In this document: piece by piece, positions 1-63,100 of the stretch | Layout of the letters: each line of letters begins with the position of its first letter | Position numbering within the stretch: position 1 is the first letter of the stretch | Notes under the pieces: generated by a model | What the model saw: only the letters and a program-made list of their open reading frames with translations | The model's database searches: none | What the model was told of the DNA's origin: nothing | Assembly: GCA_030247885.1 (NCBI GenBank) | Contig: JAPDRO010000001.1 | Location: forward strand, 496,001-560,000 | Direction of reading: 5' to 3' | DNA length: 64,000 nt | Source: Taxawa tesnikishii (nom. ined.) | Lineage: Eukaryota; Ascomycota; Dothideomycetes; Dothideales | Position numbers and translations under genes: made by a program

Positions 1-1011
1 GGCCGTGGCGAGGAACTCAGTGAAGAAGGCTGTAGCGGGGAAATCCAGGCTTTAGGTTGCGTATAGATTGCGATTCCTGTAGATTGCGGCAGCAGGCCAC
101 CGTCCAAGTGGAGGATGTCGTCCCGGTATACTGCGAACGCCAGCAGCGCGCCACAGAACGCACCCAGGATCTGGAAGAAGACGTAGCTCGGTACCCTTCG
201 CAGCGGAAATCCGCGATAGAAGCAAAGCATAAGGGACAATGCGGGGTTCAGGTGTCCTCCGGATGACCCGCCAGAGATGTAGATCCCCAGCATGGCCGCG
301 AAACCCCACGACCAGTACATGGATTGGTACGTCCCGGCTTGCTGCTGTGAGGTTGTGACGGCTAAGTTAGAGGATATACCGACGAAGCAGAGCACAAGCG
401 TGCCGAGCCATTCACCAAGCGGATTTTGGAAGCGCCGACGGATGCATGACCATGTGTTGAAGGACCAATCTTCAGGAGCTTGCTCGTCCCCCCTTATCTT
501 GCCACTGCTGTTCATGTTGTGGTTGGGGTATGCGTGATGACGAGGCGGGTGAGCCAACTTCGGTTTCCTCATCCCGCCACTCCTCCGCGTTCTCCAGCTG
601 AGGTGGGATTTCGGTTTCGCCCTTCTCTTCCGTCTCGGTTGCCTCAGGCCCTTCAGTTTCGCCTACGGCTTCTTGCACAGGTTGGCGCCATTCCTTCCCA
701 TTTCGATCTTTACGAGCCATGAATCCGCGCACGGTGTGCGGGAGGTTGCCGCCTAGGCTGAATGTTGGGTCGTGGACTTGTCGTTCGTACTCTGGGTTCA
801 GTTGCCGGTAGCCTTCAGCGACAAACGTAGGCCGTGCGCCCGGATGCGTTGCATGTTGCGACTGTGGATGTCCGGCTAGCGAGTAGCTCTGCTGCGGTGG
901 CAGGGAATTCGTTGTCCTGCTCTGTTGCGCCTGCCTCGATGCGGCGGTAAATGCCGAGGCATGGGATTGAAAGGGTTGGGCCCTTGGCCTTGATCGAGAG
1001 GAACTTTGCAT
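1..1011 (-). CDS. Aquaglyceroporin (MIP family), 3' part beyond window edge
   Basis: Membrane channel for water or glycerol, of the filamentous-fungal type with a long hydrophilic N-terminus. The chosen start is MQSSSRSRP at 1011. Around residues 70-80 the protein reads DPTFSLGG then LPHTVR, a pre-membrane motif I associate with fungal Fps1-like aquaglyceroporins. The first membrane block follows (GEWLGTLVLCFVG), then the first half-helix GGHLNPALSL carrying the NPA box. The second NPA half lies outside the window. The long N-terminal segment and the membrane block are in different frames. The switch falls near a run of six C at 488-493, where one base too many or two too few would join them. 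A missed intron is possible but I see no good splice pair. Family assignment is secure; substrate is not. Confidence 0.8.
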
Positions 1012-2004
1012 CTGTACCCGTTGCGAGAAAACTGAAATTGAAAATGGCAGGAGACACTCGAAATACGAGACGTAAGAAAAGAACAGCAATGAGCAGGGTG
1101 TTCCTACATATACGTTCCTCTAATACAAGCGCGAAAGCACACTCGAGAGACAATTTCACAAAACGGACGTCAAGTTGACAGACAGATCCACGGTTCCACC
1201 GAAGGAAGAGGCTTGCCACTACTACGGGCCGATGAATGGTCAGTGTATAGTAACCGGCTGGTGATTTGTGGCGCTTGGCAGGATGTGAACCTGTGATCTT
1301 TGCCATGCTATCGTGAATTTTGGTTTTGAATGTCGATGGTTGGGGGTGCAAGATCTGACTTGGACCCATCGCAGACCCAATTTTATAATCCCTGACGTTA
1401 CTGTATCCGCGGCCGGGATCCACTCGGGATGCCGAACAGGGTCGATGCGGTTATGCTAGTCAGCATATTTCCGTGTCATGTCCGTGATTATTCACTGTCG
1501 TTGTATGCGGTTGGTCCACTTACGGCATGACGATGAGCAGCAAACGTGAGATAGGGAGTTGACTTTGCAGGGGTGTCAGAGAGAAAATGGAGTTGCGCCA
1601 AGGTGAAGACGAAGGGAAATCCTCGGTTGCTTCCGCGCTTCCATCACATCACTCTAACCACTAGCAACGCACTCCTATGGACCTCACAAACAGAACTCCG
1701 ATGCATCGCATTCGATCCCCGTGTACCCACCGTCTTCATGGCGGATGAAGTCGGCGTATATTAACAACGGCCACCACAACAGAAGTTTCGAGTGTTGAAG
1801 TTCCCTTGAATTTGTAGGCAACGACAACAGTGTGTGCGGGCTGCTGATACTGCATGCTGTGCCGCAACAAAAACACATATCTGTCTTGCTCTTCCGCCCG
1901 ATCGTGAGTATCTGCAAAATTGCCTTCCATGAAAACACACCGCTTCACCGCGCAGTATTGGTAAGGCTATCCAGTTTCGAACGCGCTTGCGGGTTGTCAA
2001 GGTG
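1012..2004. other. Intergenic, aquaglyceroporin 5' flank and qutR 3' flank
   Basis: About 1 kb between the start of the aquaglyceroporin and the stop of qutR, both on the minus strand. Open frames here are short, overlap on both strands and show no recognisable domain. I see no RNA gene. It probably contains the channel's promoter and the qutR 3' UTR. Confidence 0.5.
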
Positions 2005-4777
2005 TCAAGAGTTGCGGTAATTCTTGGTCGCCTCCTCACGCATGAGGCGTCTCGGTGCTCTGCGGCCGGTGAAAAGCTCGAACTGAGCAAATGCCTGTTC
2101 CGGAACCATATCCAGACCGTCCATGATGACCCACCCTCTGTGTGCTTCGGCGCGGATCTGGAGAACAAGCGGCGTAACCAATGGCTTGTATGCAAGCTGT
2201 GCAGGTGTTAGTAGTGTCTACAGAAAACCAAGTTAAACATCGTACCTCAATCACAACCCCGCCAGATGGACTTCTCAGCCATTCTGGTGGAAGGGTAAAA
2301 TTTGCGGCGGTAGCCTCGTTGATTCTTTTCTGAGGGATGCTGCAAACAATGATAGTGGGCAAGCGGAAACCTTCTGGCCAAGGGTCACCTATCGAGCGTA
2401 TAACACGTACGATAGACCTAGTGTGAGAAGACCCAGAGCCGTCATTTCCACTCTCAACGGGCAATCTCTCGACACTGTTGTAATAATTGGCAAGTTCCTT
2501 TGCATTCTCGAAAGTGCGGTTGTAAATGAATATATTGCGAACACCCAAAGAGCGGAAAGCATAAATTGATGCTCTGGCCATACCGCCGGCCCCGACAACA
2601 AGTGCAGAAGAATTTGGTCTTACGGTGTTGATCGGTGAAAGACCGCGACGGATTCCTGCTCGAATGCCGATCCAGTCGGTGTTATCACCATGAAGTGCTG
2701 TCACGGTACCAGATCGGTTGCTACCGAATACGGCACCTGATTTGCCTGTCCGTAAGATCTCTGCGTCTGCGCGGATCGGGATAATCGAATTGATGGCACC
2801 AATAGCCTTTGCGTGGGGACTGAGAGATTGCAGAATATTAATAGCCTCAACTTTCCATGGTTGTGCTATTGCGGTCCCCCGAAATCCGGCTGTCGGAGTA
2901 TATCCTGAAGATCATCCAAAGAGGTTGCTGACCAGGCTTTGATATTGTGTGGCAAGCCAAGGGCTCTGTATGCGGCGCTATGCATTGCTGGCGACAAGGA
3001 ATAACTAACGTTTGCGCCAAAGATATAATATCGCATCGGTTCAAGCACGAAGGAGCCGAAGAGCGCCTGAGTTGCCTGCTGAGCGGAGACGTTCGCCAGC
3101 GTTTGATCTACTTTCGACGCTGCGGAAGCAAATACCGGGGTCAAGACCGGGTTGAAACACTGAGATGCGCGCCCAAGAGCGCCGACGTTGTACGCGATGA
3201 GGGGCGCCTGATCTGCATGCGCAGTTGCGATACGGTGGCGGAAACTCTGTGCCGCACGATTGTCTACCACAGCTCGCGCTCGCGAAGTGAGCTGGACGAT
3301 ATCACAGCCCAGCCTGTTCGCCCTGCTGTATATCCGAAAGCATTCCGGATCATCCCAACCTGCTGGAAGCCGTTCTACGACCGACGACCAGCCGATGATT
3401 TTGGTGTTGCCTTTGAGACTCACAATGCCGGCCAGTGTGAAGTCGTCCAAATCAAGGCTGAGAACCATGTACTCCGGGGCGAACCGCAAGGCTTGATGCA
3501 GCATTTGAACATAGTTGTCCGACGATGCTGAATTCACTCCGTCGACAATTGTGTTGATTTGAAGGATCACTGGGAGGATAGTGGCCCGGCGGACAATTGA
3601 GAAGGCTTCGCCCATCATGTAGGCAATATCCACTGACGGATCTCGTTTTCTTTGGTCGTACACGATCTGTACTGCGTCTGCACCAATTTGCAAGGCTTCC
3701 AGGTCAGTGTTTCCGGCGAGGACGTCTGCAGCTGCTACTGTGGCGGCGTATGTGAACATTCGTTCCTCAACAGACACTTGAGAAAGTGGGTAAGCTGACT
3801 GGTGATGAGGCAGCCGTGTGTGATCCATGACCAGACGGAGAAACTTTAGGAAGTCACGCTCAGCCCTTTTTAGCGTGAGAAAGGGTGCTCGTGGAGTATT
3901 CTCGTCGTGGCTATGGTCCGAGTCCTCATCGTTCTGGTCGAGTGTTAGCAACACTGTCGGCTTAATCGACCCCAAAAGAGCGGCAAGAGAGCGTACCCTT
4001 TCTCCACCATCAGTCGCACCGGGCTGCACATCATACACCCCTTCGCTCTGGTTGAAGAATTCGAAGTTGGAGCATGCGCGAAGCAGACGTCCGCTAACAG
4101 CCAGGACAAGGGCCGTCTTTTCTTCGGTCCAGACTCGCACGTGACGCTGCACCCCTTGACATCTCGGACGATGTGGATCACAGGGTGCGTCTCTGCGAAT
4201 TTGCGGAGCATTGCATGTCCACCATGTTCCAGATCCGCAAAATTGCACACAATCACACATCTGCTGGTGTGATCTTGCAGCACATCCTGTAGGACCTGTC
4301 TGTGCCGCCTGTGGTGCTCGGATATGCCAACGGCTTTGCGATGAGACGCTATCGAGTAGCCAGTGCGCTCAAGAAATGCTCTCTCGAGGTCGACCAAGCG
4401 CCTGCTGTTCGCTGTAGCAGCCAAGATGGCGAGGCTAGATTTCCCTGACCCCCGAATGCCGATTAGCACGATGGAAGCATCCCGTTCAAACCGAGGACGA
4501 GGTACGGGTGCAGTCTGCCTCTGTCCTTGTCTAGTATGGTTTGGTGGAGCTTTTGGGTTATCAGTTGACGATCTTGCAGGATTGGAAGACGCATGGTCGA
4601 TGCGGCTGTCACTTGCTACGTACTGCTGATCCTTTGCTCCCCCAGTAAGGTCTGGGACGGCGTTACAGACGTTTCGGGTTCAGGCGAAGTAGGCGTCGAC
4701 GTGTTTGTAGAGTTATAGGGGATATCGTGTTGCCCGTGGCTCATTTGCGTCCAAGTTCTCTTGATACCGGCAGACAT
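2005..4777 (-). CDS. qutR: Quinate pathway repressor QutR/QA-1S (shikimate kinase-, dehydroquinase- and shikimate dehydrogenase-like domains)
   Basis: Multidomain repressor that evolved from the C-terminal three domains of the AROM protein and blocks the activator QutA when quinate is absent. Domain order: a low-complexity N-terminus from MSAGIKRTW (4777), a shikimate-kinase-like domain with Walker [10 protein letters not shown], a type I dehydroquinase-like domain, and a shikimate-dehydrogenase-like domain ([24 protein letters not shown], ending [14 protein letters not shown]). The dehydroquinase domain has lost its catalytic residues: DIVQ stands where enzymes have DIVK, and GWSSV where they have GSYHD. 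The last intron is 2197-2245 (49 bp). Three frame breaks (C runs at 4639-4643, 4152-4155 and 2876-2880) each vanish if the run has one more base. The gene is divergent from qutA. Length is about 905 residues, normal for the family. Confidence 0.93.
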
Positions 4778-5260
4778 GGTGCTGGGAGTGTTTATCCACC
4801 TAGTTGTCTGACCAAAGCAATCATCCTATCCGGCAGCACAGGACGTTTTGCACAAGTGTGTGCGTGGGCTGAATCTTCGGGTCAGGATTCAAAGGGAGCA
4901 TGAGCAGTTTGTGAGGCAACGTACAGACGTGCAGCAGCAGCCGTGAGCGCAGGTACCTTCTAGTTCTGGGGAAGAAAGCTCATCCGTGCATCCCTGCGTC
5001 CTGCGTCCTGCGGGGCCGATCTCATGCACGGATCCTCACGCGATGCCAGCTTCTTCTCCGCACCGCATTCCAGAACAGAACAATCAGCGCGCCGCTCGTT
5101 GGTCATCAAGCAATGTCTTGCGAGGCCAATTGAACGATAGACGCCACTCCATCGACTGGACACGAGAGGAAACACCCGGATATCTATCCGACTACAGGCT
5201 CTTGTTCATCTTGTTAGGCCCAAAGGATGGCTGTAGGGCAGGGACATCGGATGCGTTAGT
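4778..5260. promoter_or_regulatory. Divergent qutR-qutA promoter region
   Basis: This 483 bp gap separates the start codons of the repressor (leftward) and the activator (rightward), so both regulators are driven from one shared region. Such pairing is known in fungal qa/qut clusters. A partial match to the activator's own binding site lies at its left edge. No convincing coding sequence is present. Confidence 0.6.
4782..4797 (+). promoter_or_regulatory. Possible QutA/QA-1F half-site
   Basis: The 16-mer CTGGGAGTGTTTATCC matches the QA-1F consensus GGRTAARYRYTTATCC, as I recall it, at 12 of 16 positions. The right half (RYRYTTATCC) is perfect and the left half is poor. It sits just upstream of qutR and about 460 bp upstream of qutA. 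Chance occurrence cannot be excluded. Confidence 0.3.
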
Positions 5261-10336: not shown

Positions 10337-11453
10337 TCAACCCCGACCGACAACTCCAGCCTGCATGGCCAGAGAAGGAAAGCTGTTGAGGCACGCTCCA
10401 GCGTCCGTGACTGTTCTTCTCGTTTGCTGCGTCGTTGTCGGCGTCTGTAGACCGCAGTCCTCCACGATCTTCCCCAAGCCACCATTCCCCTCCTGGCGTG
10501 TTCCTGTGGAGTCTCGGAACTCGGATCAGCCATCGACCGGTTGAACAGTTCCATGCTAACCCAGCCATCGTAGCCCAAGCCGAGTATGAAGGCCTTCGTA
10601 ATCTCCTTCACTGGCAGATAGCCACCTCGATCCATTTCCCCGTAGAACAAGCGGCAGTTTCTGCTCCAGCTCATCCGCGCGGGCTGCGAAGCGGAGTAGA
10701 ACTCATGTCCCTCGACCAGTGGCTCCGCGAGGCGTTCGGCGTCGACGACTTGCACAAAGAACACTTTGGCAACGTCGACCGTGTTGACTAACCGCTCGAC
10801 TGAGGCCCGCGTGTCCGCTTCCGCGTTAGCCGTCATTCCGCTCGGCGAGGCAGGATCGGCAAAGATGCGGCCGGCGATGTTAAAGGTGTCGAGGCAGGCG
10901 CCGAAATTCGGTCTGTCGACTCGCGTGACGATGTCCCAGCACTGCTCCCACGTGTCGACATGGGTGCCCCAAGCGAGACTTTCGTAGGCGAACTTGATCG
11001 GTGGGGTCTGCCGCGCGCCCATGTCGGCCACTTCCCTCAGGTCTGCCACGATGACATCCACGTCGTCCGTGATCTCGTCGTGCGGAAGGAAGGATGAGGG
11101 TATTTGAATGACGTCGGTCTTCAGTGCTGTCGCCAACTGGAACCACAGCTGCAACTTTTCGAGCCGCTGGGCGTGGGCCTCGCGATCTTTGAGACCTTCG
11201 TAATGCAGAAAAGGCTGCAGGCAGATGATTGCAAGGCCGCGTTCCGAGCACATGGAGCGGATGGCGTGTGCGGCAAGCACTTGGTTCTCGGGGTCGCACC
11301 GCCTGGATATGTTTTGGCTAGGTACTCGAGGTCTTCATGGAAAAGCTCAATGCCCTGGAAGCCGTAGCGGGCCGCCTGGGAGAGCTTGGCCGGGAACTCG
11401 TGGACCCAGGCTCGACCCAGGGACATGGAGGAGATTGCTGGACGGCACGGCAT
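10337..11453 (-). CDS. qutC: 3-dehydroshikimate dehydratase QutC/QA-4
   Basis: Converts 3-dehydroshikimate to protocatechuate, the step that commits quinate carbon to the aromatic catabolic route. It is a TIM-barrel protein of the xylose-isomerase-like fold. The start MPCRPAISSMSLGRAW is the family N-terminus. Typical blocks follow: YGFQGIELFHEDLEYLA, then ICLQPFLHYEG, FAYESLAWGTHVDTWEQCWDIV, GACLDTFNIAGRIFADP, KVFFVQVVDAE, and GYDGWVSMELFNRSM. There are two frame breaks. G/C runs at 11290-11293 and 10472-10475 (plus-strand coordinates) each need one more base, which then gives GGATPENQVLAAHAIR and a C-terminus ending VVGRG. There are no introns. The gene is transcribed leftward, in the same direction as qutD. 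Confidence 0.93.
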
Positions 11454-15010: not shown

Positions 15011-16072
15011 ATGCAATACCAGACCGAAGTCAACATGCCGACTGACCCTGCACCGTCGTCGGAGCATTTGGAAGGCGTGGGCTACCTGTTCGGCTATCCA
15101 ATCGCTCATTCCATGTCCCCCTTGATGCATCAAACAATCTTCAACAGCAGAGGCTGGAACTGGTCTCAGCTATTCCTCGAATCGAGAGACCTGTCTCTTT
15201 TCATCAGATTGATGGACGATCCCAGATTCTTCGGTAGGTCTACCTTCACAAAACACACATGACCGAATGCGGCAATTGACAGGCGCTAGGTGCTTCCGTC
15301 ACTATGCCACACAAACTGGCGATACTCCCACATCTGGACCAGCTGACACCAGAAGCCGAAGCAGTCGGCGCGTGCAACACTATCTTCGTTCGCAAGGATG
15401 GATCGAAGCGCATGCGCATAGGTACGAACACGGACGTAATAGGAATCCGCGAGGCCTTTTATCAGAATGTTTCCAATCCCGACGAGGTATTCCACGGACG
15501 GCCTGGCTTGGTAGTAGGTGGCGGTGGCGCCGCTCGGTCTGGCGTCTATGCACTCAAAAATTCATGAAGTGCGACAAGGTGTATCTCGTCAACCGTGACA
15601 AGGCTGAAGTCGATGCTGTCATCTCGTGGTGTGCGGCCCACGGCTACGGCGACGGCCTCGTACACGTCGAAACTGCTGAGCAAGCGGAGAGTCTGGAAGG
15701 CCCGGGTGCTATTGTGAGCTGCATCCCAGATTTCGCACCAGTGACAGAGGTCGAAAAGGAGGCACGGAGGGCGCTCAAGGCTTTCCTGACCAAAGCACAC
15801 AAAGGTGCTATTCTGGAGGTGAGTGATGACCATCCCTAGCGCAGCTATGCAGTGCTAACAATACCGTTCTAGATGGCCTATCATCCGGCCCCTGGACAAC
15901 AATTGCAGAGATCTCCCAACAGGCAGGCTGGAAGGTGATACTAGGAACCGAAGCTATGATCTACCAAGGTCTCGAGCAGTCCAGGCACTGGACGCAGCAG
16001 GATGTTTCAAATGACGAGGTAAAGAAGGTGAAAGAAGCTATTGCGCAGCAACTGAGTAAATCGCATCTGTGA
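15011..16072 (+). CDS. qutB: Quinate/shikimate dehydrogenase QutB/QA-3
   Basis: NAD-dependent oxidation of quinate to 3-dehydroquinate and of shikimate to 3-dehydroshikimate. The N-terminal substrate domain has [17 protein letters not shown] and VTMPHK; the latter Lys is the catalytic lysine of the family. GTNTDVIGI follows, then the nucleotide-binding [25 protein letters not shown] and the C-terminal [12 protein letters not shown]. Intron 1 starts at about 15232 with acceptor CTAG at about 15289; intron 2 is at about 15819-15872. Two frame breaks lie at an A run (15556-15560) and a C run (15889-15892). One added base in each restores [13 protein letters not shown] and [13 protein letters not shown]. 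Start [10 protein letters not shown] is chosen; MPTDPAPSS downstream is an alternative. Confidence 0.93.
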
Positions 16073-18974: not shown

Positions 18975-20111
18975 ATGGATCCCTCCGAAGTAGACATCCC
19001 GCTATTGAAGGACCTTACAATTGACAACATCACCGAGAATGTCCACAGGATCAACTCGAGATGTCCGGATCCTCGTCTGAAGTATCTGCTGGAACGATTG
19101 GTCACCCATGTCCACGATTTCGCACGGGAAACCAGATTGAGCACGAAGGAATGGATGGCAGCCATCCAATTCCTGACCCAAGTCGGGCAGATCTGCACCG
19201 ACGTGCGGCAGGTGTGTTAAGCCCCCTCCATCCACCCTGGCGAGCAAGTCCAGACGACTGACCGGGCAAAACGTTTCGATCAGGAATTCATCCTCCTGTC
19301 CGACGTGATCGGCCTCTCCCTCCTCGTGGACAGCATCGACCACCCCAAGCCCCCGCCAGCACCGAGGGCACCGTCCTGGGCCCCTTCCACACCCACGAAG
19401 CCGAGGACGAACCCAATGGTGGCACCATCTCACACGACCCCGACGGCGAGGCATGCCTCGTCCTTTGCACGGTCAAGGACACGGCCGGCAAGCCGATCCA
19501 GGGCGTCAAGATTGACATTTGGGAGACGGACAGCAAGGGCTTCTACGACGTCCAGTACGCCGACCGAAAGGGACCCGACGGCCGGGCGGTCATGAAGAGC
19601 GACGCCGAGGGCGCCTTCTGGTTCAAGGCGATCGTGCCGGTGCCGTACCCGATCCCGCACGACGGGCCGGTCGGGAAATTGCTCAAGAAGCTCAAGAGAC
19701 ATCCCTACAGACCCAGTCACATGCACTTCATGTTCGAGAAGGAAGGCTACGATCACCTCATCACGTACGTACATGGCCCCGGCCCCCAGCGGGCTGAGCT
19801 GAGAAAGGAAGCGCACAGTGTGAACTGACGATGATGGCAGCGCACTGTATCTGCGGAACGACCCTTACGAGACATCGGACGCCGTCTTCGGAGTCAAGGA
19901 GTCGTTGCTTATTGACTTGGGCACCGTGAGCGCGGAGCAAGCGAAGGAGTACGGCGTCAAAGAGGGAGGAAAGCTCATCACTTACGATTTCGTCCTCGTG
20001 ACGGATGACGAGTCCAAGAAGCTGAGGGAAGACGAGGCCATGGCTGCGATGGAGAAATTGGGCAGGAGGATGAAGCTTTACGACGGATTGCCCGTGCCAG
20101 ATGTCGATTAG
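18975..20111 (+). CDS. Intradiol ring-cleavage dioxygenase (catechol/hydroxyquinol 1,2-dioxygenase type)
   Basis: Non-haem Fe(III) enzyme that opens ortho-dihydroxylated aromatic rings, about 330 residues. The N-terminal dioxygenase_N domain (ITENVHRINSRCPDPRLKYLLERLV, shown here in part) is followed by the catalytic beta domain. Iron ligands can be placed: Tyr in GFYDVQY, Tyr in PVPYPIPHDGPVG, and the two His of SHMHFMF. Introns: about 19210-19284 and near 19766-19840. One frame break at a C run (19350-19354); one more C gives PKPPASTEGTVLGPFHTH. The motifs fit fungal hydroxyquinol or catechol 1,2-dioxygenases best. Protocatechuate, the product of QutC, is tempting from context but not proven. 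It sits next to qutE at the end of the cluster. Confidence 0.9.
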
Positions 20112-23556: not shown

Positions 23557-25606
23557 ATGAGTGCGTCTCCAGCTGGTGGCCCGCCTTCTGGACCCCCGTC
23601 CACCACCCCAAATGGCGGGCCTATGCCAGCTGCGCGCAGAAGGAAGCCTGCAGGTATCTTTCACGCCAAAAGCCCGTTCGAAAGCCCGCACCTGCACCAC
23701 CGCGGCAAGGTACACCAGGAGCTGCACCAAATGGCGCTGCCAACAACCAAGCCACCCGAGCCCCTCTCCCAGAAAACCCAAGCAACGTCTACGCCAAACC
23801 TGTAGTGGAGACCCAAGATGCTCCAGGCACCTATACCGACTTTCCCCTGATGGCCTCAAAGAAGTCTGTGCTGGAAGGATTGCGCTTCCACGCCATGCGC
23901 TTCCAGTCCGACAGCGACGTCAACCCCTGGAACGAAGCCGTCTTCACTCGTCCGCTGCGACTTCACCGACGCTTCCCGCGGGACCAGATGATCGTGCCCG
24001 AACCGATTGTCGATTCGGTCGTGGATGACAAAGAGCGGGAGAAGGAAGCTGTTCGAAAGGCTGAGCGTCAGGCTGAACGCGAAGCAAATCAGGCTCAGAT
24101 TGCTCCTACAGACAAGAGTCAGGCGGCAGCGGCCCGGAAAAAGAACCCGTTCAAGAAGAAGACCGAGGACGTGTTGTACCCTACAGACACACCAGAGGCC
24201 CAGAAGCGTGCAAAGCTGCGTTATGAAGAAGGACGACCGTGGCACTTGGAGGATTTTGAGGGCAAAAACACCTGGGTTGGCTCGTACGAGGAGCCGCTGT
24301 CGGAGACACATTCCATCTTGCGAATCGGCCCAGAGGGCTTCACCATGATACCTCTGGAGAAGTGGTACAAGTTCATACCCACAGGTCGCTACAAGACAAT
24401 GGATTTGGATGAAGCTGAGAAGCGCATGGCCATGAAGGTCAAAGAGGGGCGCTGGTTCATGGACAGGGGCGAAAACTCTAAGATCAAGCAGTTGCACGAG
24501 GAAGCGAGACTGCGCAGACTGGAATACGGTAGAGTGGGCATGCGCGGCGAGAGGCGCGTCAAGAGTGAAGACGATGATGATGCGAGACCGGATTTCGCCA
24601 ACGACGTGGACGAGATTGATTTCGATATGGGAGAGGACTTCCAAGACGACGACGAAGGCAAACTTATATTGGGAGATGAGGAGGACGTGAAGGACGCTGA
24701 GCGAAGAATTAAGGAGGAGCATCTTAGCGCAAACATCTTCGCCGGCACTGGCGTCAAGGAAGAGAAGGACTGGTACGAGGAGGAAGAAAAAGAGAAGCGG
24801 CAAGCGGAAGAGGAGAGGAAGAAGGCAAGGAAAATGCAAAAGAGACTCATTAAGCGCGAGAGAAGAAATGAATATGACGACGAGAGCGACTCAAACCCCT
24901 ACTCCGACTCGGTGAGTCTTTCCGCCGTCCTTGTTGACGGTGTGTCAAGCTAACACGCGCACAGAGCGACACTGAAGACTCAGATGTCGAACGCCAACGC
25001 GAAGAAGAAGAGCGCAAAAGGGTCGAAGAAAACTCCGCCGCCGAAAAAGCGAACAGCGAAACGGGAGTTCACTCGGGAGCGTCTTCACGCGGGACGAACA
25101 CCCCGTCCGGCCGTGCAGAGAAGCGCGCCGATCCGCTCCGCAAAGCTACCTCCAACGCCAACCTCAAGCGTCCTGGCTCTCCCAATCTCTCGGAAGCTAG
25201 CGGTTCAGAGTCCACCCACAAGCGCCTCAAGAAGAAGCACGACGCAAACGGACGGCCCATGTCGCCTGCCGCTGCAACCTCTGACGCCGAGGCCTCGGGC
25301 ACCGAAGCTCTCCGCCCGAGGCCCAAGATGGCGAACAGCCTCCCGACCTCTCCGCCGCACGCCACGCCGAACGGCTCTCGCGCCGCCAGCCCCGCGCCCG
25401 CCGCCGGCGGCGGTTCCGACCTGAACTCGCTCCCCTCGGCCGACGAGGTCAGAGCGGCTATTCCCAAGGAGGGAATCACGATCCCAGCGCTGCTGGCGCA
25501 GTTCCGATCCAGGCTTCCCAAGGGCGCCGAGGTCAACAAGGCGTTCATCAGAATCGTCAAGACCGTCGGAAAGAGCGGCGACAAGAACACGATTGTGCCA
25601 AAGTAG
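23557..25606 (+). CDS. Transcription initiation factor IIF alpha subunit (Tfg1/RAP74)
   Basis: Large subunit of TFIIF, which binds RNA polymerase II and loads it onto promoters in the nucleus. Start MSASPAGGPPSGPP fits the fungal N-terminus. The TFIIF dimerisation domain starts around YTDFPLMASKKSVLEGLRFH and runs through WHLEDFEGKNTWVGSYEE and FTMIPLEKWYKFIP. An acidic/charged linker follows, and the C-terminal winged helix reads ADEVRAAIPKEGITIPALLAQF through AFIRIVKTV. One intron (24912-24964, 53 bp) joins YSDS to SDTEDSDVE. One frame break falls at an A run (23668-23671), where a fifth A gives HAKKPVRKPAPAPPRQG. TFIIF is essential, so the break is almost surely technical. Confidence 0.93.
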
Positions 25607-26142: not shown

Positions 26143-28405
26143 TCATACACTCGAATCTCCTCGTAGCCACTGAGTATATCTGGCATCGCCAAAAACGAGC
26201 CGTGTGAGCTCGATGAGATCCGCTGCCAAACTACTGCTTTCACCCTTTTGCTCTCGTCTCCTCGCCCTCTTCCTCTTCCCCTCCAACCAAATCTCATGCC
26301 CATTTCCCTCCCTCACCCACGCACTCGCAAAAGCGCCTACGACGCTCAGTCCCGCCATGCACCACCACGCAAGGCCGACAACCCCCTTGCTCAGCCCAAA
26401 TCCATACAAAGCAGAGAACAAGACAGGTCCCAGTGTCCTGGTGGCACTGCTCACGCTCTGGCCCATGCCATGGATGGTGCCCAGTACGCTAGGATGCGGC
26501 GATGCGTTGTTGACCAGAATCGCGGTCGCCGGCAAAGCGAACGTGCGCGCCAGGACTTGTATGCTTAGGACCAACGTTATCGCCGTCCACAGCCAGATGC
26601 CTGAAGCAGGGGCGGGAGGCGAGGAGGAAGAGGGCACGAGCGCGAGGAAGGGCGCGAGGAGGTACGCGACCGGGAACAGGCAGAGCGAGAGCCGAAAGGA
26701 GAGGGTTGTGCCGAGTCGGAAGGAGAGGGCGGGATAGAGGAGCAACTGTAGAGATATTCCGATCACCCCGAGGATCGCGAGCGCTGTTCCGATGCTGGGT
26801 GGCGGGAGCGCAAGACCACCGGTGAAAACCAGCGGGGATGCGGTTCGTAGTCCGGTGAAAGGTGTAGACTGGCGTTGGGATCGGTCCCGTTGGTAGCGGA
26901 GGCTGGGATGGGGTTGTACCGCGGCGTGGAGAGAAACACAAACCAGATGCTATTGAACGTTCCGACATGGCAGGCTAGGAGACCGTGCGCGAGAAAGGTG
27001 AAGAGGACGTTGGTTGTCCATATTCGCCTGAAAGGAAGTTTGCGCTGGGGAAGAGGTGTCCCTGGTGAACGCTGCTGCAGCTCGATATCACCTGCGTTCG
27101 CAGACTCCATGACGTTGTCGTTGTCAGAAACTGTAGTATATCCAAAATCCGACCTTCGCCGGAATACTGACCGCGAGATCCATTGTCGAAGTCGGATACC
27201 GTAGTCTGGACTGCCTCGTAACATCTCTAGAGACTGTCCTATATTTAGCAGGTTTGTTCGCACTGTTAAGGTACTGACACATACCTCCTCTAGGCCCAAG
27301 AAGATTGCGATGGCTGAAAACAGCAGAAACAAGGCGCTCACAAGGTTCGGCAAGGCGTACGGCCACTTCTGCATCCACCACACTCCGTCTTTGCCCCCAA
27401 AGACAGAATTCTGCCCGAACAAGCCAGGGTAACTACCTGCTGGGTTTGCTAGCAACCCACCTAGTATAGGACCAATGATCACACCAATGTTGAAGGTCAT
27501 TGGCATTAGCAAGAAGGCACGCGACTGGAATTTCTTCTCACGTACAATCTCCGATATCATCTGAACGTCGTTAGCATATTGTCTCAGGGGTAACACGGTC
27601 AGCGAAGCACTCACAGTTCGCATCACACCGATATTCCCATTCAACGCTGCTCTAGTCAGCCTTTGCCAACCTTCAATCCGCCATACACCCTTGCGAATTC
27701 CTACTCACCACCACCAAGTGCCCTCCAAAGGAGCGCAACGGCGAAACTCCCGCTGAAGCCGAACCCGACCGCACCTATCGCGGTTCCCAGCAATCCGACT
27801 AGGATGACCTTCTTCCGACCTTTGGAATCCGCTACTCGGCCCCACAAGACAGCCGTGCAGAACTGCGCGCCGGTAAATGCGGCCTGTAGCAGACCAGCCT
27901 GATAGGAGATGGTGCTATCGGGCGCTGAAGGCGAGAATGAGCGCAGCTGGTAGAACATGTAGGATTGCAGCGACGTCTGCGTCAACGGCTCAGAGAGACG
28001 TGCCAGGGTCAGGATGGCGAGCTGATCCTTTCGTGGAAGCGAGGACCATGATACAGGTCCTGCTTTTTCTTTGGGCGCATCGGGCTCTGCAGAATGCTGC
28101 GCGTTCGAAGGCCTTTCGTCTTCGTCAGTCGGCAAAGCGTCCAGACCGGCCGATGACTTTGGCGCCGCTGGCGCGTCTGGAGAGAGCAAACGCACGTCTT
28201 CTCCGTCGCTGCTGTCGCTTTCGTTGAAGGCGTGTTTCTGGCCGTGGCGTGGCTCGAATTGGTCGTTGGCGTCTTCTGCGGACCCGCGCTGTGTAGTCTG
28301 CGGAGAAGCACTACCGCTAGCAAGCAGGGTGCTGCTCGAGCTCACTACATCGGACGGATCAGATGGTACTGAAGAGGTATTCCTGCCCTGGTGAGGGCGG
28401 CTCAT
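26143..28405 (-). CDS. Major facilitator superfamily transporter (YCR023C/ZIFL-like)
   Basis: Membrane transporter with an acidic, Ser-rich cytosolic N-terminus of about 130 residues from MSRPHQGRNTSS (a start at 28486 is also possible). The first helices follow RKDQLAILTLARLSEPL. Motif A of the family is clear: GRVADSKGRKKVILVG. Later blocks include AFLLMPMTFNIGVIIGPILGGLLANP, a central cytosolic loop with LGLEE joined across an intron to SLEMLRG, and TGGLALPPPSIGTALAILG. Introns lie near 27.7, 27.57 and 27.26 kb. One frame break lies at 26834-26837 (plus-strand G run), and one more base gives HPPLVFTGG. Similar fungal proteins are annotated as tetracycline-resistance or zinc-induced-facilitator-like. 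Substrate unknown. Confidence 0.85.
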
Positions 28406-36334: not shown

Positions 36335-37483
36335 ATTGACGGTTCCTTGTCGCGCAGTAAAGCCCAGCAGTACAATTTAGAGTGGGCGTATGTCCGCTCA
36401 CGCCAGCTGATGCGTTGAGTAGGGTCGGTGTATGTATTGTGTCTTCACCGCTTGCGCAGGCGGCCGAAGTACCAGAACGTGCGTGCAGCGCTCGCGTGAA
36501 GTGGGCGGGTTGCGCAGTCGTAGTGAAGCTGTATGGAGGCAATCTGCCAGCAGATGTCGCGACCAAAACCAACAACTCTGTCTCAAACAAATCGGGGTAT
36601 CTCGAAGAAAGGTAGAAGAAAGTAGCAAATGAGCGTCGGTGCCGCCTGGTCCGCGACGGGTCTAGAGTGGCTGGTGGTTGGCAGGAATGTAAGAGAAGAC
36701 GATGTAGCCGTTGAGAGCAGTGAGCGGTCAGATGGCGCACGCGCGTTGGAAGACGGTGTCAGAGGACAAAGAGCCGCACAAATGAGTGAATCGTCAGCGG
36801 CGATGTATCTGCTACGCTGCAGAGGAACAATGGCGCTATTTCAGAGAGAGGCGCCTTTGTTGTCGCGCAAACGAGCGGTTCTGGGTGGGGTGGAGCTCAC
36901 AAAGACAGTGAACTGAGTGGTGTGTTAAGGAGCGTGAGTGTAACAGTGCTGCAGTGGGCGCCGTCACCCGTCACCAGTCGCCAGTCGTCGCAGGCGCTGG
37001 ACAGGGAGGTGAGCGCTGTGCTCTCGCTGGGTGAGGGGAGGAGAGCGACAGTGTATCAGGCGCGCGCAATTCAGTTCAGCGCGTTTCAGACAAACCCCAA
37101 AGTCTCATCCAGCGCGGCATGAGTGCGTTCCAATCAGCCGCACACCACCACCGTCACCACCACCACCACGACGCACGGTGCCCCCGTCCGTGCCCCTGTT
37201 TCTGGTCCTGCACGCTGGTCTGGTCCCGTTCTTTTGCGGAGACTTCTGGAGCGCTGAACTGCTCTGAACCGAACCATTGGCACGTGCAGTTACTCAGCAA
37301 ACAACTATTGCTCTCACCTTCCACCTGCACATCACGAACCTATCCATCGTTGCACACAAACAGCCATCGGAAACTGTTCTTGACTGTATATGTAACTTAG
37401 AGATTCCCCGTTCCCTTTTTTTTGTTTCTTTTGCAAGATCTATCAAAACGCCTAAAGCCCATTGTTATGAACATGCTGCTAGT
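36335..37483. other. Intergenic, 1.1 kb
   Basis: Lies between the KCH start and the BiP stop, both on the minus strand, so it holds the KCH promoter and the BiP 3' UTR. Open frames are short and of biased composition. A CAC-rich stretch at about 37139-37172 is simple sequence. Confidence 0.45.
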
Positions 37484-39724
37484 TTACAACTCGTCGTGGC
37501 CTGGCTCGTCATCGTAATCCGGCATGCCTCCTGCGCCGCCGCTGTAGAGCTTGCTGGTGATGGGGTATGCCACGTTGCTGAGCTTCTCCTTCTCCTCGTT
37601 GAAGTCGTCCGCGGTTGCAGTCGCTCCGTTCTCATCGAGCCAGTCCTGTGCTTCCTTGACAGCCTCGAGGATCTAGATTCTATGTTAGCAAGCTGCTTCC
37701 GTCGGTTGGGATTATGGTGACTTACAGTTTCCTTGTCTTCCTCATCGATCTTACCACCGAGACCCTCCTCATCGTTGACCTGGTTCTTCAGGCTGAAGGC
37801 ATAGTTCTCGAAACCGTTACGGGCCTCAATACGCTCGCGGGTGGCCTTGTCCTCCTCGGCGTACTTCTCGGCCTCTTCAACCATTCTCTCGATCTCCTCA
37901 GCGCTCAAGCGACCCTTGTCGTTTGTAATGGTGATGGACTCGGCCTTGCCGGTACCCTTGTCGCTGGCGCTAACCTTCAGGATACCGTTGGCATCCAGGT
38001 CGAAGGAGACCTCAATCTGAGGCACGCCACGAGGAGCGGGAGGGATACCCGTCAACTCGAACTTTCCGAGGAGATTGTTGTCCTTGGTCATACTTCTCTC
38101 TCCTTCGAAGACCTGGATCAGGACAACGGGCTGGTTGTCAGCCGCAGTGGAGAAGATCTGGGTCTTCTTCGTGGGGACGGTGGTGCCACGCTTGATCAAG
38201 TGGGTCATGACACCACCGGTGGTCTCAATACCCAGGGTAAGAGGGTTGACGTCCATGAGAACGACATCGCCGGTACCTTCCTCACCAGAGAGGACACCAC
38301 CCTGAACGGCAGCACCGAAAGCGACAGCCTCATCGGGGTTGATACCCTTGGAGGCCTTCTTGCCGCCAAAGAACTCTTCGAGGAGAGCCTGGACCTTGGG
38401 AATACGAGTGGAACCACCGACCAGAACAATGTCGTTGACATCAGACTTCTTGACCTTGGCGTCCTTGAGCACCTGCTCGACCGGCTTCAGAGTCTTCTTG
38501 AACAGATCCATGTTGAGTTCTTCGAACTTGGCGCGAGTGAGAGTCTCCGAGAAGTCCTCGCCGTTGTGGAAGGATTCGATTTCAATGCGAGTGGACATCT
38601 GGGAAGACAGAGTACGCTTGGCCTTCTCGACTTCGCGCTTGAGCTTACCCATGGCCTTGAGGTCCTTGGAGACATCAACGTTGTGCTTCTTGTTGTACTG
38701 CTTGACGAAGTAGTCCATAACGCGGTGGTCAAAGTCCTCACCACCAAGGTGGGTGTCACCGGCAGTAGCCAAGACCTCGAAAACACCCTCGTCCACGGTC
38801 AGGATACTGACATCGAAGGTACCACCGCCCAAGTCGTAGACGATGATTTGACGCTCCTTGTCAGTCTTGTCGAGGCCGTAGGCCAGAGCTGCCGCGGTAG
38901 GCTCGTTGATGACACGGAGAACGTTCAGGCCAGCAATGGTGCCAGCATCCTTGGTAGCCTGTCTCTGGGCGTCGTTGAAGTAGGCTGGGACAGTAACGAC
39001 GGCGTTGACGACCTTCTCACCGAGGTACGATTCGGCAACCTCTTTCATCTGTTGGATTGTGAGCAACTATAGTCTTGCACTACATCTGTTTGCAGAAGCT
39101 TACCTTGCCGAGAACCATGGCGGAAACCTCCTCGGGGGTGAAGGTCTTCTGGGAGCCCTGAACATCGACGGAGACACGAGGTTGACCGTCCTTGTTCACG
39201 ATCTTGAAGGGGAAGTGCTTGATGTCGCGCTGAACGTCCCTGTCGCTGAACTTCCTGCCAATGAGACGCTTGATGTCAAAAACAGTCCTCTCAGGGTTTG
39301 AGGCATATTGGTTCTTAGCTGCCGAAGGGGTTAGCTTGTGTCTTGCCAGCCAGCTCTTTCTGTGTGCATACCTGCGTCTCCAACAAGGCGCTCTTCGTCG
39401 TTCCAGGCGACCCAAGACGGGGTGATACGGTTTCCTTGGTCGTTGGTGCTTGCAGCCGTCAGCAGAGAGCTTTTTGCACAGGGAGTGTGACCGGGTAGCT
39501 TACAGAATCTCGACCTTGCCACCCTTCATGATACCGACACAGGAGTAAGTGGTGCCCAAATCAATACCGATCACAGGACCCTGAACGCCCTGGCTGCCAG
39601 CGCCAGCATCCTCTGCTGCGCGGGCTGGGGTTCCAAGGAAAGCCATGGGGGCAACGAAGAGGAAGAGGAGGTAGAAGACGGTCGACCACGCAAAGCGCGA
39701 GTCGGTGCTCGTCCGTCGAGCCAT
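37484..39724 (-). CDS. kar2: Endoplasmic reticulum Hsp70 chaperone BiP/Kar2
   Basis: ER-lumen ATP-dependent chaperone for secretory folding, translocation and unfolded-protein sensing. An N-terminal signal anchor/peptide is visible ([18 protein letters not shown], about residues 14-31). The nucleotide-binding domain starts [15 protein letters not shown] and has [15 protein letters not shown] and [14 protein letters not shown]. The substrate domain follows ([26 protein letters not shown]). The C-terminus ends [10 protein letters not shown], with the HDEL retrieval signal. Five exons: 39504-39724, 39372-39448, 39104-39318, 37736-39048 and 37484-37672. All join in frame with no homopolymer break. 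Length of about 670 residues is normal. A candidate UPR element lies upstream. Confidence 0.97.
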
Positions 39725-52914: not shown

Positions 52915-53699
52915 ATGACTTCAGTGGTCCTGGCCGGCAGTACAGGGCTGGTGGTATGCCCTATCCCTATCCCTATATCCCTATCCGATCGATCAAGCAC
53001 CCTCCAGGATCGTAATTCCTTTACCGTGTCGTCTGCTCACTCCTCGCAGGGGAGCAACATCCTTGCGACCCTCGTCGACCATCCTTCCTTCTCCTCCATC
53101 CAAGCCTTCTCGCGCCGCGAGCTTCCCGTCTCCTCTTCGAAGCTCCAGCCTTTGATCTCTACCGATTCCTCAAAATGGCCTTCTTTGTGGCCACACTTCA
53201 CCAACCTCTTCATATCCGCCCTTGGAACTACTCGTGGCCAGGCCGGAAGCTTCCAAAATCAGTACAAGATCGATCATGACCTGAATCTGGAACTTGCAAA
53301 AGCTGCGAAAGCCGCCGGTGCGACGACCTATGTTCTCATCTCGACCGGCGCGGCGAACCCAAAAGCTTTTTCCCATACCTACGCATGAAAGGCGAGCTTG
53401 AGGAGGATGTCAAGGCCCTGGGCTTCGAGCATACTGTCATTCTCCGTCCGGGCGTAATCCTTGGAGAGAGGACAGACAGTCGGCCTCCCGAATGGGTGGT
53501 CAGGAAGATCTTCGGCGCCGCTGGCAGCGTCAGTACCTCGCTCATGGATTTCTTCGCGCAGGACGCTCTCGTCATTGCAAGGGCTGCGGTCGCTGCGGGC
53601 TTAAAGTGTCAAGAGGGGAAGGTGGAAGAGCGGGTGTGGCAACTGGCCTCGAGCGATATTGTGCGCCTTGGTAGAACGGAGTGGAGCGGCCAGTCATGA
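52915..53699 (+). CDS. fmp52: Fmp52-like NAD(P)-binding protein, mitochondrial outer membrane
   Basis: Atypical short-chain dehydrogenase-like protein of unknown substrate, known as Fmp52 in fungi. Exon 1 (52915-52953) encodes [13 protein letters not shown]; after a 96 bp intron comes [26 protein letters not shown], so the Rossmann GxTGxxGxxI spans the junction. Next are [13 protein letters not shown], the catalytic-type [15 protein letters not shown] and YLRMKGELE, and [14 protein letters not shown]. One frame break at a T run (53367-53371): a sixth T gives [17 protein letters not shown]. Length of about 228 residues is standard. Confidence 0.9.
52958..52986. repeat. CCCTAT repeat within the first Fmp52 intron
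   Basis: Four to five tandem copies of a CCCTAT-like hexamer. It resembles, but differs from, the CCCTAA telomere unit of filamentous fungi. It lies in the intron that splits the Rossmann motif and lengthens it to 96 bp. Confidence 0.8.
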
Positions 53700-57736: not shown

Positions 57737-59656
57737 ATGGAGATGAACTACGATGATGCGGTACGTAAGACGTTCCCTTGTACTTCCCTGCGCATGCTGA
57801 CCAGATATAGGAGCTCCACCAGATTGAAGAGGAGCTCCATACTGAGATCTTGCCCGGTACCGAGATCATGACAGATGTTGGAACCCACCACTTCGTCAAA
57901 GGCGGCAGCGGTGTGCTCGTTCCCCAGCCCTCGGACGATCCTCATGATCCACTCAACTGGTCAACTAAGTGGAAAACGTTTGCCATTGCCGCTGCGTGCT
58001 CCGTCTCTTTCACCCAGGGTTTCGGCCCCTTGGCGCTTGCTCCAGCGTTTCCACTGTACATGGACGCTTTCGATTGCACACTGGCGGACGCTGTTCAGTT
58101 TACAGGTGTTGCTATCCTTGTGCTCGGCTTCAGCAACTTCCTGTGGGTACCACTCAGCACGTCCTTCGGCCGCAGAGTCGTCTACATTGCAAGTCAGATC
58201 ATCTGCCTTGTTTCATGTATCTGGAGAGCCAAAGCAAACAGTTACGGCAGCTTCATGGGTGCCTGTGTGCTCAACGGCCTCGGCGCTGGTCCAGCTGAGA
58301 GTATCCAGCCCGCAGTCATTGCGGACATCTTCTTCCTTCACGATCGTGGATTTCACAACACCGTGTACTGGACGTTCTACATGGGCTCCCTTATGGTGGG
58401 ACCAATTATATGCGGCCCTATGAGTGTGGCCGTCGGCTGGAGGAACTTCTGGTGGTTCAACGTGGGAATCATTGGTCTCTCGCTATTAATGGTCATTTTC
58501 ATGTTCCCCGAAACCAAGGTACGTTGCGGCATTGCTCGGTTGAAAAAATGCAAGCGTTAACACAAAACCAAGTGGCATCGCATGCATCCCGAAGAGATCA
58601 TCCACAATGTTGTCGCGTCCGAGAAGAAGGTCTCCCCAGCGAGTCCCAGGAAAAGGTCGGCAACCACACCGAGACGACCGAGAAGGCAGACCCCGAAAGC
58701 CTTATGCCAGTCCCTACTCATGGCACTATGCCTGACCTCTCACTCTCTGCGACCGCCGCACGCGACCCTTATCTCGGCAAAGGCACGCCATCGAAAGCGC
58801 AATGGGCGCCGTTTCAAAAGAACGCCCACCCGTTCAAATCAATCCTGCTTGACCTCTGGATCCCATGGAAGCTTTTCGCGTTCCCGATTGTCGAATTCGC
58901 TGCCTTCGTCGTGTCATGGTCGTGCAGTTCCTTCTTGACGCTCAACCTGACACAGAGTCAGAACTTCGCAGCACCTCCATACAACTTCAGCGAGCAGACG
59001 ATTGGCTTCTTCAACTTTGCGATCTTGGTTGGTGCCATCATCGGCCTGGCGACAGCGGGCAAACTGAGTGACTGGGTTTCTGCCTACTTCACCAAGCGGA
59101 ACGGAGGTATTAGAGAGGTTAGTGCACTTGGACACCTGTGAGAGAGGAAGGCAAAGAACTGACATGGGTCTGCTAGCCCGAGATGCGTCTCCCAGCCATG
59201 ATTCCTTACGTGATCATCATGCTGCTCGGCAACATCATCGTCTCTGTTGGTTACGAACGAAAGTGGTGAGTTTTCACATCCTCCGAGCCAAACGGTTGAC
59301 GAATATTCCCGCTGACCATGTCCATCTCCAGGTCCTGGGAAGTCATCGTCATCATCGGCTTCACGTGTGCGGGTATCCAAGTGGCCGCGCTGCCCGCCAT
59401 GGTCTCCACCTACGCAGTCGATAGCTACAAGCCTGTTGCTGGCTCCCTCTTCGTCGCCATCACCGTCAACAAGAACGTCTGGGGCTACGGCTTCTCGAAG
59501 TTCATCACGCCGTGGATTGAGGAGGACGGCTTCATCGCCCCCATCATGACCAACGCCGCCCTCATTACTTTCTTCTGCTCTTGCGGTATCATCTTCTACT
59601 TCTTCGGAAAGAAGTTCAGGAGATGGAGCAAGAACAGCTCTGTACACAGGATGTAA
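57737..59656 (+). CDS. Major facilitator superfamily transporter (DHA1-type)
   Basis: Multi-pass membrane transporter of the drug/proton antiporter type. Exon 1 (57737-57760) encodes MEMNYDDA; exon 2 from 57811 starts ELHQIEEELHTEILPG. DPHDPLNWSTKWKTF is the classic DPxNPxNW-like pre-helix motif. Further blocks: FWVPLSTSFGRRVVY-like LWVPLSTSFGRRV (motif A), GLGAGPAESIQPAVIADIFFLHDRG, and ALPAMVSTYAVDSYKPVAGSLFVAITVNKNVWGYGFSKFITPW near the end. Introns near 58520-58571, 59118-59177 and 59265-59331. One frame break at a C run (58634-58637); one more C gives VSPSESQEKVGNHTETTEK in the central loop. Substrate unknown. Confidence 0.88.
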
Positions 59657-60120
59657 GAGAATTGAGTCGACGAGGAACAAGCGGTGGGATATGGGACATT
59701 ACACGAATACAGGGATATGGATATGAATGATACCAAATATCGCGTTTGTACTTTTCGCGTCGGAAGGATTGCGGACTCGCAATGCTTGGAACATCCAATT
59801 TCATTGTTGACAAGATGAGAGACTTGATTCCAGCGCAGACCTCGAAGAGTGACATTGCTGTTCCATGTCAAAACAGATTCGATTTCGATTGATGGTATAC
59901 GATTCCGCACGCCCTGCTCATATGGAGCCTTTCCCAACGCCAGCGCTCACGGAACATGCTACTGGTACACCCATAGCAACCCACTAATGCATTCAATCAA
60001 CACCGACCGGCACAGTAGAAGAAAGAGCAAAGAGACGAAGTTTGTGAAGCCCATCCTTTCACACATGCTCATGCTGACCGTCCGCCCTTCCCTTACGCCA
60101 TGCAAACAGATTGCAATGCT
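59657..60120. other. Convergent spacer
   Basis: About 460 bp between the stops of the MFS transporter and Rsc9. Nothing recognised. Confidence 0.45.
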
Positions 60121-63100
60121 TCATCCACCACCTTGCGCCACGTACTTAACGAGGACGCCTAGGTACTCCTTAAGGATGAGGTTGTGCGCTAATGCGAAAA
60201 ACAGTCTTTCCTTAACAGGGCCGAAGACGCGTTTCATCAGTTTCTTGTTCGCGCTCTGCGCGTCTTCGGCATCTTCGTCGTCTTTCCCGTCAACGCCTTC
60301 CGCAGTCTTGATCTTGGGGATCCCCGCGCAATGTTTCGCAGTACGAGCACGGCACCCAATGGCAAACCCGCGGCATCGTTCCGCTCGTCCACCATCGTGT
60401 TGAGTGAGACTCGGGTACGTGATTGTTCCCGCTTCTGCGATGGCGCCGTGGCGCCGTTGTGTTTGCGGCGCCAGGCACTGCTGCCGCTACCATCGGGAAG
60501 GTGTGTTTCGATGTGGCGGGCCAGGAGGGCGCGGTGGACCGCTGCATTGGGAGTGCTGGCTTGTACATGGTGTCGGTTGCAGTTGCCCCAGCGGCACGAG
60601 TACTGCACGTTTGGATCTACACCGGCGAAGTCGAAGTTGTTGAGAGACGATGCTGTAGTGGAAGATGGACGGGACAGAGGGTTTACCGGGCCAGTCGATG
60701 TTTCGCCGTTGGCGGCTGAAGTGGGCTGTTTCCGAGGGATCTTGAGGTGCGTGGAGAGGATGTGGTAGAGCAAGCGGCTGCCGTCAGCAAACCACTCTCC
60801 GCACTCGCTGCCCTCGGAGTTAGCGAAGACGGGTGGGAACTCGGGGCCGCTGGATTTGTGGTCCATATGCCAGTTGCATTGAGCGAGCTCCTTGCCGCGG
60901 TAGTCGACTGGTATGCGGCGAGGTTTGATGCCGCGTATGACGTACTTGTTAGTGCCTGCCACCTGAGCAGCAGCACCTTGAAAAGTACTGGAAACGTTTT
61001 TGATGAAGTCGCCGGCAATCAAATGCGGATGGGACTGACTGTAAGGGACGAACGTGCTCTGGTATGACTGCCACAAGTGGATTTGTGTCATCTCAGCGTT
61101 GGGATCGTCTTTGAAGCACATACGAAGCCTGCGGAATGAATGTCAGCAGTCAGTTCCTTTTGGTTGCAACTGCAAAACAACGCTCACCAATGCGAGCTGC
61201 GCTCCGGCTCTTCATATCGGAGCAGTTGTCCAACCAGCTCGTTCGCGAGCTTCGGTATCAGTGTTGACTCAGGTTCTTCCTGATCGGAAGTCCGCGGTTT
61301 CTCGTAACGCACATCTTCCCTGGCGTTGAACAGCAGTAGCCGTGAGAGTTGACGGACAAGAGCATCTAAGTCGAAGTTATGCGCCAGTACCTCGACATTG
61401 TCGGCTATGGAGGTGAACTGGTAAAGGAAGTCCAGGCATGCGGACCGCAACTCTTCATCCTCCACCATCATCCACTCACAGATGTTCCGCAAAACCGAGA
61501 GCGGGACGTCCTCAAGGCGTTTGTTAGCCTCGAGGTTCATGCCAATACGAGCGATCGCTCGCAGAGATGTCACGATCTTGCCTCGATCGTTGCTGTCCAG
61601 TTGGTCCAGTAGGGCCCGGTAAACCAAATCTTGCGAGTCCAAATCGAAGTATCTGGTAAGCTGCTCAGCCGTCTCGAGGGCATACAGTTGCAGCTCGATG
61701 ACTGAGGGATGCGGCTTGATGTGTAATACAATTGCGAAATAGTCGCGAATAAGAGGGAGTTTTGCAATGTACTGAGCGTTCTCGTCGAGCATGACCATAT
61801 TTCGGAGGACAAGGCCAGCCTCAGTAATCCGGCCCAACGCTTGGGTGAATTCCGCGGCCTGCACATCGTCGTCCGTGTCCAGGGGAACGTGAGATCTCAA
61901 CTTTCCGACGACGTTACGTGTGCCGCGGACTCCATCTAATATGCGACTGCTGTCTGGGCGGGCATCGCCATCGTATGACACGACCCACTCAACGTCGTAG
62001 AACAGGTTGCTGACCTGCAACACCTTGTTGACAAGGGCTTCAGCTAGACCGGCGAACTGGTCGAATCGGTACTTGTCGCCACGTTCATGAGAAATCTTGA
62101 CTAAATGATGCAAAGCATACTGTTCTTCTTCTGGAAGGCCTGACTGAAGAGCGAGCTGTGCACGAACGTAGATGTTGGGCCCAATGAACCCAGTTCCAGG
62201 TAACATCAGCCCTCTTCCTTTCTTGGCGACTTGACTGATCCGGGCCTCCAGTAGCTGTTTCCTTTTCAATCGGTAGTGCTCTGGGTTATTGGCAGGCGTC
62301 GTAACGGGTTTGAGCGACAGGGGATACTGCTGTCTTGGCTCATAGTTGGCCAAAGTTGTGTTCAGGGAGCCATTTGTAAAGTATGATCCGTTTACTGCGC
62401 TGTTCATGCCCAAAGCACCGGGGCTGGGCGAAGTGACTTGGTTGTTGGCGTTTCGTGTTTGTCTCGTGGTGACCTCGGGTTGAAAGAGAACGCGCTGGGG
62501 AGGTGCTTGACGAAGTCCTGTAACGAGAGAATGAGTCTTGTACCACATGTTTGTTGAATATGTTGTCACGGCTAGCTGCGGCCGGCAGCTTGTGTGGGGG
62601 TCGAAGAACAGGTAGCAGCGCTTACCTCTGGTTGATCTTCCGTTTGCACTGTTCGGGTCGTCTACGTCCATTTTGTCTTGCTTTGGTGTCTGCTCCGGCT
62701 CGGGACTCTCGGTAGACCGTCCGTTTGTAAGCCTCTTCGCTTCCCGACTCTCCGGCTTTTCGAAGTTTTCCAAGGTCCTGTTCATGACCCCACCGCCTTT
62801 AGCTGTGATATCCTCCAGAATCTCTTTTGGCGGAGGGTCCTTCTTCCAGTGTGTTGAGATCTCATAAGCGCTGTCAATCATGAGCATGCGCGCTCGATAT
62901 GACAGGGACCGGACCTACACAAGATTCTTGTAGTATGCGCTCTTGACCTGGAATGCTTGTGCTGCAAGCTGCGCACTCTTGCCCAAAAACTCTTCAGCGA
63001 ACTTCCTCCACATCAATGGCTTCTCTTTGGTGTCCGAACACAGGTCGTATCCACCTTCCTCGACAACGCGCTTGTACAGACGAAGGAGGTCCAGATGTCG

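Follow-up and report, generated by a model that had tools for sequence, protein, structure and literature searches.

Frame-breaking errors in homopolymers have been described in other long-read assemblies. For the nanopore-only assembly of Drechmeria coniospora, most errors are reported to lie in homopolymers and to change the frames of conserved genes, and short-read polishing to have fixed the homopolymer lengths (PMC7500977). The same study states that BUSCO misses such errors, since gene models are let through even when their introns are improbably short (PMC7500977). The Kastor study describes long-read drafts of small genomes in which frameshifts and premature stops falsely pseudogenise genes (PMC12007338). 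Here we examine a comparable pattern in Taxawa tesnikishii (nom. ined.), in a 64-kb stretch referred to as the window (positions 496001–560000 of contig C1, in an assembly of 29.37 Mb and 34 contigs), where genes of a qut-type cluster and many others look broken at short runs of identical bases. The broken frames are almost certainly assembly errors, produced by a long-read consensus that shortened runs by one base; the feature is most likely an ordinary, known error type and not real biology.

As in D. coniospora, homopolymer indels break the frames of conserved genes; unlike there, where insertions are reported to have exceeded deletions after long-read polishing, missing bases dominate here (PMC7500977). 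In this respect the assembly is more like a scarcely polished draft. The Kastor case shares gene-fragmenting errors in a long-read assembly, but it treats small genomes against a curated set (PMC12007338).

The observations in hand are the direction of the breaks, their association with homopolymers, their spread through the genome, the depletion of long runs and the gap-only differences between repeat copies. The organism's DNA would carry longer runs of identical bases, some of which the base-calling and consensus of the long-read assembly would report one base short; the platform was most likely Oxford Nanopore, probably with no polishing by accurate short reads. A one-base loss inside a coding exon would then shift the reading frame. 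A long-read assembly is indicated by the telomere repeats seen at six of the seven contig starts fetched, together with the 34 contigs for 29 Mb.

Broken reading frames in the window

The initial annotation had placed one-base losses at fifteen runs, and all fifteen are present, nine of them four bases long and six of them five (8 C, 4 G, 2 A and 1 T). Since the window holds 539 runs of at least four bases, a run alone is weak evidence, and the change of frame is the real test. The shift corresponds to one missing base at 15/15 sites, at upstream and downstream frames that were chosen per site from six-frame translations with the claim known and are thus not independent. The codon test used an order-3 score and 90-nt flanks, the flank before each run being scored for the upstream frame and the one after it for the downstream frame. 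The upstream frame wins before the run and the downstream frame after it at 13 of the 15 sites, which backs the claimed breaks there and leaves those at qutC 10472 and TFIIF-alpha 23668 unsupported; at qutB 15889 and MFS 58634 the upstream 90 nt contain intron. A blind scan, to which the sites were not given, was run as a Viterbi parse with six coding frames, GT-AG introns of 42–160 nt and an equal price for a missing and an extra base. At 9 of the 15 sites it placed a missing-base break no more than 25 nt away, although the zones reaching 25 nt to either side of its missing-base calls cover 1.1% of the window.

The names qutR, qutC, qutB, Fmp52 and Rsc9 are those of the initial annotation. 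Domain matches are consistent with the names of the qut genes, the dioxygenase, HP1 and CCT5 and, below the Pfam cut-off, with TFIIF-alpha, Fmp52 (HIM1) and the 26.8-kb transporter (MFS_1); the identities of Rsc9 and of the 58.6-kb transporter are based on reading translations. The sites are listed below with the codon scores given as upstream/downstream, followed by one gene that serves as a counter-example.

2876–2880, minus strand: qutR-like, shikimate dehydrogenase-like part; Shikimate_dh_N 1–52, then 48–83 in the next frame with no gap; blind call at 2868
4152–4155, minus strand: qutR-like, between the shikimate-kinase-like and dehydroquinase-like parts; SKI, then DHquinase_I in the next frame; codon +7.2/+3.9; no blind call
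4639–4643, minus strand: qutR-like, close to the N-terminus, outside any domain match; codon +7.5/+2.4; no blind call
10472–10475, minus strand: qutC-like, close to the C-terminus, claimed break undemonstrated; codon +5.8/-2.7; no blind call
11290–11293, minus strand: qutC-like (dehydroshikimate dehydratase); AP_endonuc_2 in the downstream piece only, from profile position 30; blind call at 11291
15556–15560, plus strand: qutB-like (quinate dehydrogenase); Shikimate_dh_N upstream, no family downstream; codon +10.0/+15.0; blind call at 15557
15889–15892, plus strand: qutB-like, directly after an intron; SDH_C (below cut-off) downstream; codon +4.0 (partly intron)/+8.6; no blind call
19350–19354, plus strand: intradiol dioxygenase; Dioxygenase_N and Dioxygenase_C in different frames; blind call at 19348
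23668–23671, plus strand: TFIIF-alpha, claimed break undemonstrated; codon -1.3/-0.1; TFIIF_alpha (below cut-off) further downstream; no blind call
26834–26837, minus strand: MFS transporter; weak MFS_1 upstream, none downstream; codon +7.4/+7.9; blind call at 26834
29467–29471, minus strand: HP1-like, between the chromo and chromo-shadow domains; Chromo and Chromo_shadow in different frames; blind call at 29485
32259–32262, plus strand: CCT5-like chaperonin; Cpn60_TCP1 344–376, then 376–488 in a different frame with no gap; blind call at 32256
53367–53371, plus strand: Fmp52-like; HIM1 51–95, then 105–146, 23 nt apart in different frames, below cut-off; blind call at 53370
58634–58637, plus strand: second MFS transporter, directly after an intron; no Pfam match in either piece; codon +3.6 (partly intron)/+6.5; no blind call
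60322–60325, minus strand: Rsc9-like; codon +8.5/+18.0; blind call at 60328
37468–39066, minus strand: main exon of an HSP70/BiP gene, counter-example; looks intact

Short GT-AG introns, the qut-type cluster and the TTAGGG-type telomere repeats at contig starts mark the DNA as fungal. The breaks could in principle be unrecognised introns or misread gene models, to which we give an extremely slight chance. Short introns do adjoin several sites (qutB, CCT5 and the 58.5-kb MFS gene), one call of an earlier scan proved to be an intron, and the two unsupported sites, qutC 10472 and TFIIF-alpha 23668, could be of this kind. However, in qutR, in CCT5 and, weakly and below the Pfam cut-off, in Fmp52, profile matches span the break and leave no space for an intron, and the scan still chose a one-base break near the nine sites with introns on offer. 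Introns should also prefer neither sign nor homopolymers, whereas the calls show both preferences. In the dioxygenase and HP1 genes, successive domains lie in different frames. The window gave no tRNA or Rfam matches over its 64 kb.

Frame breaks across the assembly

Twenty 10-kb stretches were taken from elsewhere in the assembly, and 13 of them entered the main tally together with the window, for 94,053 predicted coding bases in all; seven contig-start stretches (L030–L036), which are subtelomeric or mitochondrial, were kept apart. The reported model is a refitted order-3 model, an order-2 refit giving 44 missing-base and 18 extra-base calls, and all scan models were trained on the sequences they scanned, window included. 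An order-4 codon model was under-fitted, with 7 missing-base and 2 extra-base calls in the same 14 sequences, and was replaced.

In the tally, missing-base breaks number 44 and extra-base breaks 15, a split with binomial p = 2e-4 under equal odds; the window accounts for 14 and 5 of them, respectively. A run of at least four bases lies within 3 nt of 16/44 missing-base calls, within 10 nt of 23/44 and within 15 nt of 28/44, against 6.9%, 16.2% and 21.8% of random coding positions (p = 1.7e-8 for the excess at 3 nt). Extra-base calls stay at this background (1/15, 2/15 and 3/15 at the same distances) and therefore look like model noise; some of the missing-base calls may be noise too. On average, 2.1 kb of predicted coding sequence holds one missing-base call. 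Six of the contig starts, scanned apart, gave missing/extra counts of 0/1 (L030), 1/1 (L031), 2/1 (L033), 4/2 (L035), 1/1 (L036) and 0/0 (L034).

The breaks are genome-wide and blind to gene function, and the affected genes in the window span catabolic, transport, chaperonin and chromatin functions. The loss, which the initial annotation had called systematic, is indeed frequent, 11 of the 13 other stretches having at least one missing-base call, but it is not universal: some long runs survive and several conserved genes look intact. One of these is the BiP gene (about 37.5–39.3 kb), with its introns present and an HDEL end. Breaks are thus common and far from universal. Genes of an essential kind are among those broken, as had been noted, namely CCT5 and the Rsc9-like gene. 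On contig C3, the profile match of an HSP70-family gene likewise switches frame without a gap (pieces 29–265 and 265–420). A proteasome search produced one overlapping join on C34, which was ambiguous and left uncounted.

These genes bear on true mass pseudogenisation, in which the bases would really have been lost in the organism and many genes would be dead. The assembled sequence does contain the frame breaks, and the genes of a qut cluster, which serve quinate use, are likely dispensable. Pseudogenisation is nevertheless very unlikely, as the CCT5, Rsc9-like and HSP70-family genes are broken as well, and as codon preference is intact on both sides at 13/15 sites, which gives no sign of old decay. 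A further argument against it comes from near-identical repeat copies, in which 26 gap columns stand beside no substitution column.

Repeat copies and run lengths

Five contig starts (L030, L031, L033, L035 and L036) carry the same helicase-type repeat beside the telomere, alongside telomere repeats of the TTAGGG type. Aligned from base 100 of L030 over 6,227 columns, the five copies show those 26 gap columns, with three adjacent pairs among them, and 0 substitution columns. Fifteen of the 26 lie in runs of at least four bases, which make up 5.3% of bases (p = 3e-13), and 12 lie past base 1000. Relative to the majority state, 18 columns have a missing and 8 an extra base, and odd cells amount to about 1.06 per copy-kb. 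A first count, from the telomere tract onward, was free of substitutions and found 35 cells with a missing and 12 with an extra base; it included the telomere-junction block, and the start was moved to base 100. Pairwise BLAST alignments that include the telomere tract hold 7–15 one-base gaps per pair, and 114 one-base gaps and 10 substitutions over the 10 pairs. The assembly contains at least 28 copies of a 5.3-kb part of the repeat, a count that leaves out the one with which C33 begins (L035). Against a query of 5,301 bases, the other 27 listed copies measure 5,301 (4 copies), 5,300 (15), 5,299 (7) and 5,297 (1), and 23/27 therefore differ from the query by 1, 2 or 4 bases.

Consensus error acting on repeats that were homogenised a short time ago would be expected to leave gap-only differences between copies. 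Ordinary mutation should not leave such a pattern, which fits long-read consensus error and is the strongest control available here.

The repeat itself has its DEAD/Helicase_C part and its OrsD part in two overlapping open reading frames. An extra-base scan call falls near the junction of these frames in all five copies (L030 4377–4411 and the matching places) and, being common to all, represents an intron or a shared frame break. Another copy, at C2 866700–871999, lies not at an end but about 290 kb inside contig C2 (1,163,921 bases), a position that points to a misjoin or to an old fusion of chromosomes.

Long runs are in short supply. Compared with an order-2 Markov model of the same DNA, the 14 sequences of the main tally contain 27 runs of at least six bases where 77.5 are expected and 286 of at least five where 356.0 are expected, while runs of at least four match expectation (1,629 vs 1,638.7). 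In predicted coding sequence, 9 runs of at least six are seen against 57.5 after synonymous codon shuffling; the shortfall of roughly 48 nearly equals the 44 breaks, an agreement that may be luck. In predicted non-coding DNA, A/T runs of 4, 5 and 6 occur at 41.4, 10.3 and 1.1 per 10 kb. Depletion also marks L034, the AT-rich first 10 kb of C32 (C32:1–10000), with 2 runs of at least six vs 12.5 expected. This telomere-side stretch, with 24% G+C, has almost nothing in common with the helicase repeat and no predicted coding sequence, and it resembles an AT-rich block of the repeat-induced point mutation (RIP) type.

Repeat copies and run counts also bear on the proposal that the short runs are real and are corrected at the level of RNA or the ribosome, by programmed frameshifting or insertional editing. 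Such correction would agree with the codon preference in the flanking frames at 13/15 sites and with the same sign of shift at 15/15 (frames as chosen). Yet slippery heptamers of the form XXXYYYZ (Y = A or T; searched to about 8 nt from the run) were found on the coding strand at 0/15 sites, and on the opposite strand at one (53367). Moreover, gap-only differences also separate the telomere-side repeat copies, and run counts drop sharply above five in predicted non-coding DNA too. We consider this proposal scarcely credible, and its specific form, in which run-specific RNA insertion or ribosomal slippage restores the frames of many nuclear genes, close to inconceivable.

The preference of the initial annotation for a technical cause, homopolymer under-calling, over pseudogenisation is upheld by the 44 vs 15 breaks, of which only the missing-base ones sit at homopolymers, by the long-run depletion and by the gap-only repeats.

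Counter-evidence and consequences

Several results weigh against consensus error as the full account. In the repeat alignment, the odd state is common to two copies in 7/26 gap columns, and with the telomere tract included the pairwise alignments carry 0–4 substitutions per pair. The chaperonin loci (L001–L016), scanned apart with overlaps merged, gave 6 missing-base and 5 extra-base calls, which is not the roughly 3:1 ratio of the main tally. Among joins between neighbouring Cpn60_TCP1 pieces, CCT5 in the window is the sole gap-free one; the 11 joins at other loci are 28–114 nt apart and intron-like, and this points to fewer breaks than one per 2.1 kb predicts. The sole window call of the discarded order-4 scan, at 37671, was wrong and marks the BiP gene intron. 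Two COX1 copies in the mitochondrial contig C25 differ by 8 substitutions and 2 gaps and are thus not gap-only. Synonymous shuffling shows that runs of five are scarce too (88 vs 191), as are G/C runs of 3–4; this indicates some natural avoidance of runs, which may explain part of the shortage. Runs of at least six are undepleted in six of the seven contig-start stretches (L030–L033, L035 and L036) and in L027. For the six subtelomeric or mitochondrial contig starts, higher effective read depth is a possible reason.

With consensus error as the favoured explanation, users of the assembly risk false gene losses, split genes, tiny introns and pseudogenes. The warning of the initial annotation that automated gene models would invent introns here agrees with the D. 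coniospora study (PMC7500977). With missing-base calls as dense as one in 2.1 kb of coding sequence, some of them perhaps noise, claims on gene content need polished sequence first. The gap-only check of telomere-side repeat copies offers a cheap internal test for assemblies whose reads are not at hand.

Other observations concern the make-up of the assembly. A 5.8S rRNA search of it gave no match, with 39/883 first-look candidates scored; the rDNA array may be absent from the assembly or beyond the reach of the search. The two COX1 copies of C25 (80 kb) are inverted and 99.8% alike over 4.3 kb. The COX1 of C26, considered as an error control, has 88.6% identity to that of C25, with 177 substitutions; it belongs to a different mitochondrial sequence and was unusable. 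It is split over frames, and a cytochrome b match lies on C28. The assembly thus contains two kinds of mitochondrial sequence (C25 and C26); the sample may have included a second organism, or the mitochondrion may have been mis-assembled.

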